From Desulfobacca sp. (GTDB lineage Bacteria > Desulfobacterota > Desulfobaccia > Desulfobaccales > Desulfobaccaceae), in assembly GCA_028695935.1 (NCBI GenBank), contig JAQVHY010000002.1:1-61362 (forward strand): a stretch of DNA of 61,362 nt, in the 5' to 3' direction. How positions within the stretch are numbered: position 1 is the first letter of the stretch; each line of letters begins with the position of its first letter. Below, piece by piece: positions 2,007-7,290 of this stretch. The position numbers and the translations under genes are program-made. The notes under the pieces are model-generated. The model made no database searches. It saw only the letters and a list, made by a program, of their open reading frames with translations, and was not told the DNA's origin.

Positions 2007-2789
2007 CTACTCCCAGGGCTTTCGCCACCAACGCCCTTTACCCCGGTCCGATGGTATTTCCACAGTCGGGAGTGTCATGTCCGGGTTTGGCTCGGGGTCC
2101 GGGGCCGGTTCGGGGTCCAGGGCCGGTTCGGGGCCCTCAGGTGGGACATCGTGCTCTACCACTTGTTCAGCTGATTCCTCAGGCTCTACCCGGACAAATT
2201 TCTCTTGGGGCTGCCAGGGCTCAAAGACGATGGTCGGTATGTTCCCCCCGCAAAAGTCAAACACTAACCCCGTTATGTCCCCCGCCATTTTGCTATGTAA
2301 GATCGCCAAGACTTCCAGCTCCGCATCGCTTAGCCGGGCCAAACGCTCGGCGCTGTAGACCGATTGCTCGGCTTGAATCTCTTGGCGTATCCGGGCCTCG
2401 ATGTCCTCAGTCTTACCACGCAGCTCCGCAAGCCGGGCCTCGTGAAACATTGCCGCTATCCGACAAAGCAGGTCCAGGGTGTTCCGTTGCTCACCCAAGG
2501 CCTTCAACGCCGTCCCGTCCCGCTTGGCCTTGAAGTTCCGGTCAAAAATTAGCTGGGCCTTGCCGATGATATCTTCAAGCTGGGATAGCAACCCTAGGGA
2601 TTCCACAACCTGACGCTTTTCGTAGACCTGGCAGAGCTGACGGGACAAGTGATTTTTGGCGTGGTAGCTGATTGAGTTCTCTGACACCCCGTATCGGCCA
2701 GCTATCCCTGCAAAAGATAGTCCTTTCACGATTTCTCTATCAATTTCCAACCTTTTCGGATGGTTACATATCTTGCAGGCCATAGTCAT
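2007..2789 (-). CDS. Phage HTH protein, terminase-small-subunit-like
   Basis: 260 residues. Residues 1-50 carry a CxxC pair (CKIC) followed by a homeodomain-like HTH with the pattern SFAGIAGRYGVSENSISYHA, as in terminase small subunits and related phage DNA-binding proteins. Residues 60-180 look helical. The tail from about 215 is a Pro/Glu/Asp-rich repeat (EPALDPEPAPDPEPNPD), coded by a GC-rich tandem repeat near 2085-2140, and ends in a short basic Trp-rich peptide. The position before an AlpA-like gene and a head protease fits a packaging or late-regulation role. The assignment is tentative. Confidence 0.55.
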   Translation of the reverse strand: MTMACKICNHPKRLEIDREIVKGLSFAGIAGRYGVSENSISYHAKNHLSRQLCQVYEKRQVVESLGLLSQLEDIIGKAQLIFDRNFKAKRDGTALKALGEQRNTLDLLCRIAAMFHEARLAELRGKTEDIEARIRQEIQAEQSVYSAERLARLSDAELEVLAILHSKMAGDITGLVFDFCGGNIPTIVFEPWQPQEKFVRVEPEESAEQVVEHDVPPEGPEPALDPEPAPDPEPNPDMTLPTVEIPSDRGKGRWWRKPWE

Positions 2790-3022
2790 TAGGATTTTTC
2801 CTCTTCAGGGTCGGGGGTTGCGACACAGGCGACAAAAGGCGACACAAGCGACAAAAAGCGACATTTTTCATAAGGGTGCGAGGTGGTTTCATTGAAACCA
2901 GCTTGTGCGCTTGTGACGCGGGCTAGTAATAAAACTAAGTACCTTGTACATGGGCGTGACACCCTGGTTGTCCGGGCTGTTCCTTTTTTTAACCCGTTAT
3001 TTGTTATATTTAATATTTTCAA
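2789..3022 (-). CDS. Doubtful small reading frame across the origin region
   Basis: 77 codons from a TTG with no clear ribosome site; the stop overlaps the next ATG by one base (TAATG). I recognise no domain. The frame runs through the GCGACA repeat array and a 17-bp palindrome, so it may be open by chance across a replication origin. The TAATG junction is the only argument in its favour. Confidence 0.2.
   Translation of the reverse strand: MKILNITNNGLKKGTARTTRVSRPCTRYLVLLLARVTSAQAGFNETTSHPYEKCRFLSLVSPFVACVATPDPEEEKS
2820..2863. repeat. Five-copy GCGACA array
   Basis: GCGACA begins at 2820, 2829, 2839, 2848 and 2858, a spacing of 9, 10, 9 and 10 bases (mean 9.5), close to one DNA turn. The copies therefore face the same side of the helix, as protein-binding iterons do. 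Confidence 0.75.
2884..2900. promoter_or_regulatory. 17-bp perfect palindrome inside the origin region
   Basis: TGGTTTCA-T-TGAAACCA is a perfect palindrome with 8-bp arms, between the two iteron-like arrays. It could bind a dimeric regulator or initiator; nothing in the sequence says which. Confidence 0.45.
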
Positions 3023-3060
3023 CTAATTACCTGTTTATAAAAATTAGTAATCATTACTGA

Positions 3061-3160
3061 GCGTGACATTAGCGTGACATAAACGTGACATTGGCGTGAC
3101 AGTTTGGACAACCCGTGACATGCGTGACAGTTCGTGACATGCGTGACAGTTCGTGACGGT
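3061..3160. repeat. Nine-copy CGTGACA array
   Basis: CGTGACA or a one-base variant begins at 3062, 3073, 3084, 3095, 3114, 3123, 3133, 3142 and 3152, a spacing of 11, 11, 11, 19, 9, 10, 9 and 10 bases. The last copy (CGTGACG) abuts the stop codon of the replication gene. The units differ by one base from the GCGACA units of the other array. Confidence 0.8.
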
Positions 3161-4737
3161 TAGGTAACAAAATTGCATCCTTGGACTAATTTATATTGCC
3201 ATTTCATACCCTTAGGGTTTTTACCAGGGATTCGCCAGAGTTTGCCTGACTTAAGCTCAGCGGTCCCGCCGTCCAGGTTAAGGTAAATTCTGGCCTTCTG
3301 CATGGTGGCATAACCGCCGCGGGCCACGTCCGCACCTGGATTTTTCTGTAGGCCGATAATGGCGACGCCGGTCGTTAATTTTCGCCAGATACGGCCAATT
3401 TGATTTCCAAGCCTGTAAATTTCCTCCGGTTCCTCCAGGTAGTCGATGATATTAAGAGCATCCGGAACAACAATGTTTTCCACGGCCTCAGGTGCAAAAT
3501 TGCCTTTCCAATTGACATGTTGCCATGCCTCAGGCGGATACTCGAATTTATCCAGGCGGTCCCTCAGTTCCGCGGCGCTCATTTCTGAATTGAAAAAGAA
3601 AACCCCGTGTTGGCTATTGGCGAGGGCTAGATTTAGTAGAAAGGCGGTCTTACCCGCGTCTTTCGCGCCGGCCACGATAGCGATTGATTTAGGATAGAGA
3701 TAACAAAGCTCATGTAATCTAAAAGGCCAAATTAGCTTATACTCCGACTGTTTTTCAGTAGAGAAGGGGTCCAGGTCATCACATGCAGAGTCAACTTTTG
3801 TATAAATTCCTGGCCGGTTTGGTATTCTGGCGATGATTCCCGCTTCTGCAAGTCTTTGAACAATTTTTCGCCTGTTATCAGTTTCAGATTGTTTGATATT
3901 TAGTTCCCGGTCCAGGTCGCTAATCGCAAACTGGCCCTCAATCCCTTCTATCCACTCTCGAATATCCGATGACAACCCCCGCTCCCGTGGGGTCTGATTG
4001 AAAGCCGATTGAACCTTAGCCAGGGCGGTCTTTTCGCTAAATGGTGGGTTGCACGACGCGGCCAACTGGCAGACAACCATCTCCACGTCGGGCCGCGGCA
4101 TACCAGACTTGCGCAGGGCCAGGGCTATGGTGTAAAGCGATACGTCCCGGCCAGGTTCATTAAAGGTTAAGGTAGCAGTCCCGGCCTCCTGGCGCTCTCC
4201 CTTCGGCCTGGTGGATTCCCCGCGGGCCTGGTTCTCTTGAAAAAACTTAATAACAAATTCCGGCAAAGGTGCTGGTTCAATCGCTTCCGGGTCTTGATCT
4301 TTAAGCCACCTGTAGGCCACGCCGTCGATTTCCGATGGCGGGATAACATCTTGGTGTCCGCTTCCGGACCTGAGTTCCATTTCGTCAAATATATCTCGCC
4401 CTTTTTCGTCTTTTTTCCCGGTAGCCTGCTTAACTATAATTTGGCCGCTATCAAAGGGCCAGGGATCGGGTCTGAGGTAAAGGCGTTTAGTGTAGCCTCT
4501 TGCCGTTTTCCAGGCCACAGTAGGGGGTAGCTTGCCAGTTTTCTCCCAACTGTTAACCAGGGATTCATAGCAGAGTGCGTCAGGGTCCAGGGTGACATAA
4601 CGGTCAAGTCTTAGCCCTACATTGCCGCCGTTGTTCTTGCCCATTGCCTCTGATAATTGGCTCTCAGACAATGTTGTCCATTCGCCCAAATATGGCTTTT
4701 TAGAGTTCTTAATGATAGGGATTAACGGGCCAATCAT
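3160..4737 (-). CDS. Primase-polymerase fused to a RecA/DnaB-type helicase
   Basis: 525 residues, probably the replication initiator of the element. The N-terminal 170 residues are a bifunctional primase/polymerase (AEP) domain: an hDhD-type motif in VTLDPD and an sxH-type motif in SGSGHQDVIPPS. A helical linker with winged-helix character follows (about 250-320). The C-terminal 200 residues are a RecA-fold ATPase with Walker A AGAKDAGKTAF and a DnaB-like FFFNSEMSAAELRDRL segment. The N-terminus starts right at the first strand, a little short for the family; no better start codon is in frame before the upstream stop. The gene ends on an iteron array, which supports a replication role. Confidence 0.8.
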   Translation of the reverse strand: MIGPLIPIIKNSKKPYLGEWTTLSESQLSEAMGKNNGGNVGLRLDRYVTLDPDALCYESLVNSWEKTGKLPPTVAWKTARGYTKRLYLRPDPWPFDSGQIIVKQATGKKDEKGRDIFDEMELRSGSGHQDVIPPSEIDGVAYRWLKDQDPEAIEPAPLPEFVIKFFQENQARGESTRPKGERQEAGTATLTFNEPGRDVSLYTIALALRKSGMPRPDVEMVVCQLAASCNPPFSEKTALAKVQSAFNQTPRERGLSSDIREWIEGIEGQFAISDLDRELNIKQSETDNRRKIVQRLAEAGIIARIPNRPGIYTKVDSACDDLDPFSTEKQSEYKLIWPFRLHELCYLYPKSIAIVAGAKDAGKTAFLLNLALANSQHGVFFFNSEMSAAELRDRLDKFEYPPEAWQHVNWKGNFAPEAVENIVVPDALNIIDYLEEPEEIYRLGNQIGRIWRKLTTGVAIIGLQKNPGADVARGGYATMQKARIYLNLDGGTAELKSGKLWRIPGKNPKGMKWQYKLVQGCNFVT

Positions 4738-4904: not shown

Positions 4905-4961
4905 AACATTTCAGATAGTTTTTAGTTTAGCCCCCGGGTCAGCCGCCCGGGGGTTTTTTTT
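4905..4961 (+). ncRNA. Candidate ~57-nt small RNA antisense to the replication-gene leader
   Basis: The interval runs from the expected start of the promoter at 4870-4898 to the end of an intrinsic terminator. No reading frame of useful length fits. Any minus-strand message reading from the regulators at 5.0-5.7 kb into the primase-helicase gene would cross this region, so the RNA would be antisense to that leader. Short antisense RNAs next to replication genes are known as copy-number controls in plasmids. The match here is architectural only. Confidence 0.4.
4931..4961 (+). terminator. Intrinsic terminator
   Basis: A perfect 8-bp stem, CCCCCGGG (4931-4938) and CCCGGGGG (4946-4953), with a 7-base loop is followed by eight T residues (4954-4961). 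The T tract is only on the plus strand, so it ends plus-strand transcripts. The hairpin could still make a minus-strand polymerase pause before the replication gene. Confidence 0.75.
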
Positions 4962-5015
4962 GGGCCGCATTGCTTCTACCCGTAAGCTCTTGGGGAATAT
5001 TGGCCGGGGTGAACA

Positions 5016-5210
5016 TTAGCTGGCCTCTGGAAAAATTTCTGATTCTTGAACCTGTAACATTTTGGCGATGATCGCTTTTTCTTCCGGGGTCGGGGTAGCT
5101 CGGCCATATATGAATCGGCTAATTCGATCTTCCCGGATTCCACAAGCCCGGCCGAAAACGAATTGACGGCCAAATTTTTGAATAATTTTAGCCTTTAGCT
5201 CGGTGTTCAT
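5016..5210 (-). CDS. Cro/CI-like HTH regulator
   Basis: 64 residues, essentially one lambda-repressor-like HTH domain: VFGRACGIREDRISRFIYGR is the helix-turn-helix core, and TPEEKAIIAKMLQV is the typical fourth-helix region of XRE proteins. There is no dimerisation or cleavage domain. GAGGG lies about nine bases before the ATG. It sits between a MerR-like regulator and the replication gene, the normal place for a Cro- or Stl-type switch protein of a temperate phage or satellite. Confidence 0.75.
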   Translation of the reverse strand: MNTELKAKIIQKFGRQFVFGRACGIREDRISRFIYGRATPTPEEKAIIAKMLQVQESEIFPEAS

Positions 5211-5263
5211 TTAATCCCTCGTGAAATGTGCAACGTATTGCGTATTAATAAACCAAAAAAAAA

Positions 5264-5707
5264 TTAAGGTTTTCGGCTAATTAGGTCATCGACACCTTTG
5301 GCGATTCGATTAAGATAAATATCAATAGCCAACTCACCTTTGGCCTGGGGTAGCCTGTCATTTTCCTCAAAACGCAAAGAGATAAAATGGCCTCTGGTTT
5401 CCCCGGGTTCAATTCTTAAGACTACCCCTCTTTTGAAAACGGGCGCGGTCCAGATTCTTTCAACTTGGGGTGCTATACTTTTCAACCACAACGCAGATAT
5501 TCCAAGCTTTAATAATTTCTCCATTGTGGCCAGGGTGTAAAGATTTTCCAGGGAATATACCCGATTGCGCCCCCGCCGGTCTGTATGTTCTCCCACAGTC
5601 CCCACTAAACCGTTTTCAACCCAAAAAAGGATGGTCCGTTTTGGAATATGGGAAAAGATTCGGTTGACGTCTTTTTGATTAAATTTAGTAAGCATTATGT
5701 TGCTCAT
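5264..5707 (-). CDS. MerR-like HTH regulator of the element
   Basis: 147 residues. Residues 8-75 form a MerR-type winged helix (NRIFSHIPKRTILFWVENGL, then RRGRNRVYSLENL in the wing and second helix). The rest is short and has no cysteine-rich effector site. An in-frame ATG at 5695 is an alternative start; neither has a clear ribosome site. The gene's own promoter spacer holds a 12-bp palindrome, so autoregulation is likely. It is the first minus-strand gene inside the right boundary of the element and is probably the immunity or lysogeny regulator. Confidence 0.65.
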   Translation of the reverse strand: MSNIMLTKFNQKDVNRIFSHIPKRTILFWVENGLVGTVGEHTDRRGRNRVYSLENLYTLATMEKLLKLGISALWLKSIAPQVERIWTAPVFKRGVVLRIEPGETRGHFISLRFEENDRLPQAKGELAIDIYLNRIAKGVDDLISRKP

Positions 5708-5731: not shown

Positions 5732-5918
5732 GGGGGTTTTGTTTCAAAAAAATGACCCCCTAATCCTGGTGCTCAGCCGGGGTTAGAGGGCCGAAAACGA
5801 GTGACCAAAAAGTGACCAAAATATATTTTACGGTGTCAAATACGTCAAATGAGTTAACCAGTCCCCCCTTGTGATTTCAAAGGGTTAGTAATTTCGCACA
5901 ATTGCACAACCGCCTTAT

Positions 5919-5968
5919 CCTGAATGGGGTTCAGGGGGTCGGAGGTTCAAATCCTCTCGTCCCGACCA
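5919..5968 (+). other. Attachment site: 3' fragment of tRNA-Pro(GGG)
   Basis: The sequence folds as the anticodon arm (stem CCTGA/TCAGG, loop ATGGGGT, anticodon GGG), a five-base variable loop, the T arm (GGAGG-TTCAAAT-CCTCT), the 3' acceptor strand CGTCCCG, discriminator A and encoded CCA. Everything 5' of position 27 is missing: the bases upstream do not form a D arm or the expected CGGGACG acceptor strand. This is the duplicated 3' end that tyrosine integrases leave at one side of an insertion. The intact tRNA-Pro should be at the other end of the element, beyond position 1. Confidence 0.85.
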
Positions 5969-5987
5969 GGGGTTAGCAATAATTTGA

Positions 5988-6159: not shown

Positions 6160-7290
6160 TCAGACCACTCGCACCAGTCGAAATCCCGAGATCGGGAAGC
6201 GATTGCGGGAATGGGGTGGCGCATAAAAACGGGCCGCACAGCGGCATTTTTTGGCGCTGCTGAACCATGAACCGCCCCGCACTACCCGTCCGGGACCGGA
6301 AAGCGGGCCGGCAGGATCGGTCTGAGCGGTTTCCGGGTAGGAACTATACCAGTCCTGGCACCACTCGGCCACATTGCCATGCATGTCGTATAGGCCCCAA
6401 GCATTGGGGCGTTTTTGAGCCACAGGTTGTAGGGAACGGTTGGAATTGCCACAGTACCAACCGATCTCATCCAGGGCCGGGTCAAGTTCACAAAATAGGG
6501 TGATTAAATCCCCGTTGGCCAGGGCCGTGGGGCTTCCGGCCCGGCAGGCGTACTCCCATTCAGCTTCGGTGGGCAGCCGGTAAATGCCTTCCTGGAGGGC
6601 CAGCAATTTTCTGATAAACTCCTGGCAGTCATTCCAGTTTACCCCTTCCACCGGTAGGTCGGCGCCAGTTTTCAACATGCGGGAAGGTATGTGGCCCATC
6701 AGGGCCTGCCATTGGCCCTGGGTCACTGGGGTGACCTGAAAATAAAGGTCCTGGGAGATAGTCACTTCATGCTGAGTCTCATCGCTACTGCGTCCGGTTT
6801 CAGTTTCTGGACTGCCCATCAGAAAACTACCGGCCGGGATGCGGACAAAGGTCATGTTCAGGGAATTGGTCAGAGTCTCTAATCCGGCCGGAATCTGAAT
6901 GGCGGAGGGTCCCAGGGCTGGGACCTCGCCCACCTCTTCGTTTAAAACTTGAACCTCGGGTTCAGAAAGTGAAACATCACCAGGGGCTGGTTCTAAGGGA
7001 GGCGGAGGTAGAGGTGAAACAACCTGTTGCGCCCTGCTCAGAGCCGGAGCTGGCCCCGCCACCGGCCCAAAATTCTGAGCCTCGGGTTTAAAGATTGGAA
7101 CCTCATCAGGCCGCGGTCCGGACCGTAGCGCGGCACCGGCCTTCGTGGCCCCGGCTGGAGGAACAACGGGCGCGACACCGGGTGCAGAGATTCGTTCTGG
7201 CACGGGCGCGGCTGGAACCGGAGATGGAGTAGATTCTCCCATTAGGTCCTGGACCCTGGAAAAAATCGGCTTTTGTTTTGTTTTTTTCAT
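6160..7290 (-). CDS. Formylglycine-generating-enzyme-like protein lacking the catalytic cysteines
   Basis: 376 residues. Residues 1-140 are a Pro/Ala-rich low-complexity region without a signal peptide. Residues 145-376 are an FGE-sulfatase (SUMF1-like) domain: FVRIPAGSFLMGS, RLPTEAEWEYACR, WGLYDMHGNVAEW, GRVVRGGSWF and a closing GFRLVRV. In true FGEs the segment after GGS holds two copper-binding cysteines; here it reads GGSWFSSAKKCRCAAR, so at least the first is absent. Sulfatase activation is therefore unlikely, and a ligand-binding or scaffold role is more probable. It starts eight bases after the ExeA-like gene and is surely in its operon. Confidence 0.8.
   Translation of the reverse strand: MKKTKQKPIFSRVQDLMGESTPSPVPAAPVPERISAPGVAPVVPPAGATKAGAALRSGPRPDEVPIFKPEAQNFGPVAGPAPALSRAQQVVSPLPPPPLEPAPGDVSLSEPEVQVLNEEVGEVPALGPSAIQIPAGLETLTNSLNMTFVRIPAGSFLMGSPETETGRSSDETQHEVTISQDLYFQVTPVTQGQWQALMGHIPSRMLKTGADLPVEGVNWNDCQEFIRKLLALQEGIYRLPTEAEWEYACRAGSPTALANGDLITLFCELDPALDEIGWYCGNSNRSLQPVAQKRPNAWGLYDMHGNVAEWCQDWYSSYPETAQTDPAGPLSGPGRVVRGGSWFSSAKKCRCAARFYAPPHSRNRFPISGFRLVRVV

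Follow-up and report, generated by a model that had tools for sequence, protein, structure and literature searches.

A predicted replication origin with two iteron types beside a PrimPol-wHTH-ATPase gene in an integrated element of Desulfobacca

Positions 2820-3158 of the window (i.e. the whole stretch of Desulfobacca sp. DNA that was analysed, 61,362 bp, which is the entire contig C177) are very probably the replication origin of a phage or satellite element integrated in a tRNA-Pro gene, and this origin would be bound by the PrimPol-wHTH-ATPase protein encoded beside it. Comparison with related loci strongly supports the assignment of this segment as an origin. Read jointly, the data suggest a broader picture, which we hold to be reasonably likely: widespread phage-type initiators of the PrimPol-wHTH-ATPase kind would hold a complete origin, made of an AT-rich tract and two phased arrays, inside their own gene, with one array lying over the codons of the presumed DNA-binding domain; the iterons would switch in concert, the origin could move to either side of the gene, and the window would carry such an escaped origin, with two of the iteron alleles of the family. 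What appears to be new is, on the one hand, an initiator family whose origin can be intragenic or lie on either side of the gene, and whose iterons change together, and, on the other hand, the mixture of two iteron types in the window origin. A literature search limited to open papers found no description of an intragenic origin in PrimPol-type genes.

RESULTS

Two phased repeat arrays around an AT-rich stretch

The features of the segment and of the genes on its two sides are the following.

2007-2789, minus strand: 260-aa HTH protein adjoining array 1, possibly a terminase small subunit (from a weak N-terminal HTH match and from its position)
2820-2863, plus strand: predicted iteron array 1, GCGACA x5 (starts at 2820, 2829, 2839, 2848 and 2858; steps 9/10/9/10)
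2868-2916, no strand: imperfect inverted repeat between the arrays, with palindromic centre GGTTTCATTGAAACC (2885-2899), a possible regulator site
2955-2961, plus strand: single CGTGACA, a predicted iteron, between array 1 and the AT-rich stretch
2985-3060, no strand: AT-rich stretch (82% AT), candidate unwinding region
3062-3158, plus strand: predicted iteron array 2, CGTGACA x8 (3062, 3073, 3084, 3095, 3114, 3123, 3133, 3142) and a degenerate CGTGACG at 3152
3160-4737, minus strand: predicted replication initiator, 525 aa, with PrimPol, helical, wHTH and RecA/DnaB-like ATPase domains
3796-3975, minus strand: residues 255-314 of the initiator, a wHTH domain that presumably reads the iterons

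The five GCGACA and nine CGTGACA units reported in the first-pass annotation are correct in number and position, and the degenerate CGTGACG at 3152 comes in addition. Counted from 2955, the CGTGACA units follow each other at steps of 107, 11, 11, 11, 19, 9, 10 and 9; within array 2 (3062 to 3152) the steps average 10.0 bp, the 19 being taken as two. All the GCGACA and CGTGACA units of the segment are on the plus strand (0 on the minus strand) and, over the 61-kb window, CGTGACA occurs nine times on the plus strand, always in the segment, and once on the minus strand. In 2000 dinucleotide shuffles of the segment GYGACA came up 0.33 times on average and never more than 3 times, compared with the 14 occurrences observed; the top 6-mer count per 386 bp is 10 in the segment, the next best elsewhere in the window being 8. 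The segment is single-copy in the genome, and GGTTTCATTGAAACC is present once in the window. The AT-richest 60 bp, at 2997-3056, reach 87% AT, which places them in the top 0.04% of the window. The earlier statement that the arrays flank an AT-rich stretch is true overall, except that one CGTGACA (2955) sits on the GCGACA side. The cores were also said to differ by one base; in fact the base before the first G differs too (gGCGACA or aGCGACA versus CGTGACA).

Array 2 stops one base short of the stop codon of the PrimPol-wHTH-ATPase gene, as the claimed contact with the end of a primase-helicase gene implied; the gene is on the minus strand and the repeats on the plus strand, so that the repeats run opposite to the gene. 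The arrangement is thus that of an iteron origin, with short direct repeats beyond chance adjoining an initiator gene and an AT-rich region beside them. A GC-skew check, which had been proposed with the origin reading, showed no switch at the segment. Promoter and terminator scans of the segment gave no excess over shuffles, and an Rfam search no match near the arrays.

The putative initiator

Pfam recognises a Prim-Pol domain (PF09250, 7.7e-15) and a DnaB-like C-terminal part in the 525-aa protein, with no SF3-helicase or TOPRIM-type match. The AlphaFold2 model (mean pLDDT 87, pTM 0.55, hence with uncertain domain placement) comprises a PrimPol domain (1-155), a helical domain (160-247), a wHTH (255-314) and a RecA core (338-524) that matches DnaB, RadA and KaiC structures; the domain limits were taken from secondary structure and alignment. 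The family-invariant residues D51, D53, K363 and D432 are all kept, and the gene looks intact.

Relatives were found in Methanosarcina virus MetMV (28% identity over 99%) and in many viral contigs and genomes, and none in plasmids. The closest one found shares about 37% identity, and consequently no second element with exactly the window origin was encountered. Viral contigs were also scanned with single proteins of the element (the initiator, the 260-aa protein and the DUF2213-type protein), which gave no close relatives.

Phased arrays in and beside homologous genes

A k-mer survey of 110 homologous genes (107 fetched loci and three others), based on one array statistic picked after the window was seen, detected phased arrays in or beside the gene in 65 loci versus 10 of 1024 control windows (600 bp, elsewhere in the loci); some of the loci are near-duplicates, so that these counts are not independent. 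For the remaining 45 homologues this measure gives no clear array: 38 have none and 7 a weak one. Arrays are therefore kept with the initiator gene in relatives, as expected of an iteron origin. The first-pass annotation had named repeats that are not conserved in related elements as grounds for giving up its reading; phased arrays turn out to be conserved in the family, while their sequence and position are variable.

Most of these arrays are intragenic. In 45 of the 110 genes, ~10-bp-phased copies inside the gene exceed all 200 synonymous-codon shuffles, and in every one of the 45 the copies lie in two or more reading frames; this argues for selection on DNA, and protein repeats were rejected as a source of the arrays on these same two grounds. 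The frequent order is an AT-rich tract, array A, ~225 bp and array B, one array of the pair being inside the wHTH-coding part. A recurrent spacing consists of four copies 9-10 bp apart, a gap of 222-237 bp, and four copies 21, 20 and 10 bp apart, with, for example, CGTTACA in locus L093, GTCTACA in L086 and CCTTACA in L033. At the same threshold, extragenic arrays lie 5' of the gene in 11 loci and 3' in one. CGTGACA arrays are found at the 3' end of the gene in L080 and L167; in L080 there are three CGTGACA at the gene end, with AT-rich sequence beyond, and in L117 there are 3' and intragenic arrays sharing one motif. L080 and L117 are the nearest parallels to the position of the arrays in the window.

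When the two arrays were searched separately, the motif of array A was that of array B in 17 of 19 genes; the two exceptions include L104, where array B corresponds to array A in reverse complement. Between genes the motif switches, even when the proteins are 73-76% identical: the pairs L101/L102 and L075/L105 have different motifs in all copies. A motif shared within a gene and changed between genes is what would be expected if one protein reads all the copies, target and reader changing together. It also bears on the idea that the repeats are chance occurrences or sites for a host factor, which we find extremely improbable. The same CGTGACA triple does recur in many unrelated contigs, as would a common host-factor site, but the excess over shuffles is strong, plus-strand CGTGACA is confined to the single-copy segment within the window, and a host-factor site would not be expected to vary between close relatives.

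Among de-duplicated genes, 15 of 37 with arrays and 0 of 15 without have the AT-richest 60 bp of gene and flanks at +430 to +620 from the start (Fisher p = 0.0024; percentile comparison, p = 4e-5), and the AT peak typically precedes array A by a few to ~30 bp. In the window, too, the AT peak (2997-3056) comes before CGTGACA (from 3062), with the same polarity, the module being inverted relative to the gene. Two points count against the origin reading: this orientation to the gene is the reverse of that in the intragenic cases, and the two window arrays differ in core while those of relatives normally agree.

Other repeat arrangements were seen in the course of the survey. One genome has two prophage-like copies, L028 and L027, with TGTGGAC arrays inside the initiator gene (at 5237-5334 and 6481-6560, with 11 and 7 units found, respectively). 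A different PrimPol-ATPase gene (558 aa) occurs in L024, L025 and L026, from three genomes of the same order; the region behind it (7503-7782 in L024) holds many TGGCTCA and TGAGCCA sites, with both orientations represented, and is probably another origin type.

The motifs as entry point

Three CGTGACA at 9-12 bp steps are present in at least 120 viral contigs, and a relative of the window protein in only 5 of the 80 CGTGACA-array contigs that were examined. Genes within 700 bp of the triple arrays are mostly primases, replication initiators, DnaB and DnaD-like loaders; those more than 3 kb away on the same contigs are portals, integrases, terminases and endolysins. Replication genes beside CGTGACA arrays, together with the phased arrays and AT-rich tracts of the family loci, lend support to the origin reading of the first annotation.

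Phased repeats are typical of operator and partition sites too, and the arrays might be operators or a centromere-like partition site where no replication starts. We consider this very improbable, because none of the element genes in the window was recognised as a partition gene, the arrays of relatives are inside a replication gene and accompanied by an AT-rich tract, and the neighbours found from the motif are replication genes. A further alternative keeps the origin and changes the binder: the MerR-like, the Cro-like or the 260-aa HTH protein would bind the iterons and recruit the PrimPol-helicase. Several HTH proteins are indeed encoded nearby, and the presence of CGTGACA arrays next to unrelated initiator types in viral contigs implies that one motif can go with different proteins. 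However, in relatives the PrimPol-wHTH-ATPase gene keeps its arrays, often within its own sequence, in surroundings that vary; the arrays are still beside or within the gene in homologues that lack the PrimPol part; and the initiator has a wHTH of its own. It is because homologues starting near the wHTH still have an array beside them that this domain is presumed to be the iteron reader, and binding through one of the other proteins seems to us quite unlikely.

Both window motifs are used as iterons in the family, GCGACA in both arrays of L322, a clear member (E = 3e-133), and CGTGACA in L044, L057 and L080. Most GCGACA pattern matches were collagen-like coding repeats with a period of 9 and were discarded; only the few mixed-spacing arrays were used, and these lie mostly beside primase-helicase genes. 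Such arrays accompany DUF3987 and Prim-Pol genes in L290, L291 and L329, and in L290 the GCGACA sets flank an AT-rich tract.

These findings matter for a rival reading that restricts the origin to the CGTGACA array and the AT-rich stretch, the GCGACA array being a packaging site for a small terminase or the operator by which the 260-aa HTH protein controls its own promoter. A distance of 31 bp separates the end of the GCGACA array from the start codon of the 260-aa gene, whose product has a weak N-terminal HTH match; the core of the array is unlike CGTGACA, whereas relatives usually have one motif. Against this stand the use of GCGACA in both arrays of L322, the mixed-spacing GCGACA arrays by DUF3987/Prim-Pol genes and the published PICI layout, in which two sets surround an AT-rich region; moreover, a terminase function of the 260-aa protein found no confirmation. 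We regard this restricted origin as unlikely. Of the two options left by the first-pass annotation for the differing arrays, the motifs of the family members favour two affinity classes of one protein over two proteins. The difference could also stem from a second protein, or from the origin being a hybrid of two.

The integrated element

The first 5969 bases of the window are the end of an integrated element, whose further features are the following.

5016-5210, minus strand: Cro-like HTH protein of the element
5264-5707, minus strand: MerR-like HTH protein of the element (in L022, too, the homologous initiator gene has a MerR-like gene before it)
5919-5969, plus strand: att repeat of 51 bp, 3' part of tRNA-Pro(GGG), right end of the element

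On contig C130 there is an intact tRNA-Pro(GGG) gene whose 3' part matches the 51-bp att stretch exactly, and a tyrosine integrase gene beside this tRNA gene marks the other end of the element. No contig overlapping the window start or the end of C130 was found, and the middle of the element is missing; cut as it is by a contig end, the element may be incomplete or dead. Its genes in the window, all on the minus strand, encode the MerR-like and Cro-like HTH proteins, the PrimPol-helicase, the 260-aa HTH protein, an HTH_17 protein, a DUF2213/head-protease-like protein and a 238-aa protein.

Several other short signals were noticed. GTGACCA pairs, 11 bp apart, occur near both element ends, at 5801-5818 of the window (GAGTGACCAAAAAGTGACCAAAA) and at 2862-2878, minus strand, of L020 (TTTGTGACCATTCGTGACCATTG); lying ~70-120 bp inside the att core, they are candidate arm-type integrase sites. 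AAGTGAC is found on the minus strand at 1754 and 1765 (11 bp apart) and at 1811, between the HTH_17 gene and the DUF2213-type gene, and 1754-1817 may be a small operator. Between the PrimPol gene and the Cro-like gene, at 4913-4962, a strong G+C-rich hairpin is followed by a T run on the plus strand, opposite to the element genes; its Rfam matches are sub-threshold only, and it could be the end of an antisense or regulatory RNA.

DISCUSSION

In the mechanism that we propose, the element would first be induced and excised. The PrimPol-wHTH-ATPase protein (3160-4737) would then bind the ~10-bp-phased GYGACA iterons, probably via its wHTH and probably as an oligomer whose subunits stack along a single helix face. 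Occupation of the CGTGACA array and of the GCGACA array, on either side, would open the AT-rich stretch at 2985-3060, where the RecA/DnaB-like domain would be loaded and the PrimPol domain would prime DNA synthesis.

An odd block of repeats would thereby become a predictable origin for a large and mostly uncharacterised group of mobile elements of bacteria and archaea. The apparent recognition rules are short units in phase, which on the coding strand mostly end in CA, and an adjoining AT-rich tract; they could be used to find origins in unannotated viral contigs. Since target and reader often occupy the same bases, the family would form a natural series for the study of joint specificity changes of an initiator and its sites, perhaps in response to origin attack such as that described for PLEs.

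How does this origin compare with known systems? In P4-type satellites, short repeated sites lie in two places (ori and crr) and a multi-domain primase-helicase, the alpha protein, binds the origin. The window likewise has short repeats in two places, and its multi-domain primase-helicase would bind the predicted origin. However, alpha combines a TOPRIM-type primase with an SF3 helicase, whereas the window protein combines a PrimPol (PF09250) with a RecA/DnaB-like ATPase. In lambda, iterons and an adjacent AT-rich tract lie inside the initiator gene O, with 4 iterons, and 6 in Stx phages (PMC7466680); many relatives of the window gene likewise have intragenic iterons and an AT-rich tract, but in the window itself the predicted origin is 3' of the gene. 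Moreover, O is not a primase-helicase, and the family is distinguished by ~7 bp units at ~10-bp steps in two arrays ~225 bp apart, one of them in the wHTH-coding part.

The origin of PICIs such as the SaPIs, which goes with a Pri-Rep protein, lies directly 3' of pri-rep and has two iteron sets flanking an AT-rich region (PMC6092414). The predicted window origin is organised in this way: the initiator has primase and helicase parts, the origin is immediately 3' of its gene, and two iteron sets surround the AT-rich region. The element also integrates site-specifically with its own integrase (51-bp att in tRNA-Pro(GGG), C130), a property that is not specific to PICIs. It differs from PICIs in that the nearest initiator relatives are in phages, prophage-like loci and viral contigs, with the origin mostly inside the gene, in the differing cores of its two iteron sets and in having a head-protease-like gene. 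As both contigs end inside the element, its gene content is read in part, and membership of the PICIs is only a possibility.

Finally, in the replicons of Vibrio PLEs the DNA-binding domain of RepA and the iteron origin vary together between relatives, and this switching has been linked to an origin-targeting phage nuclease (PMC8263062). The PLE initiator is unrelated (RepA_N) and its iterons are semi-palindromic, ~30 bp long and intergenic, but the concerted change of initiator and origin is the same as that suggested here for the family of the window protein.
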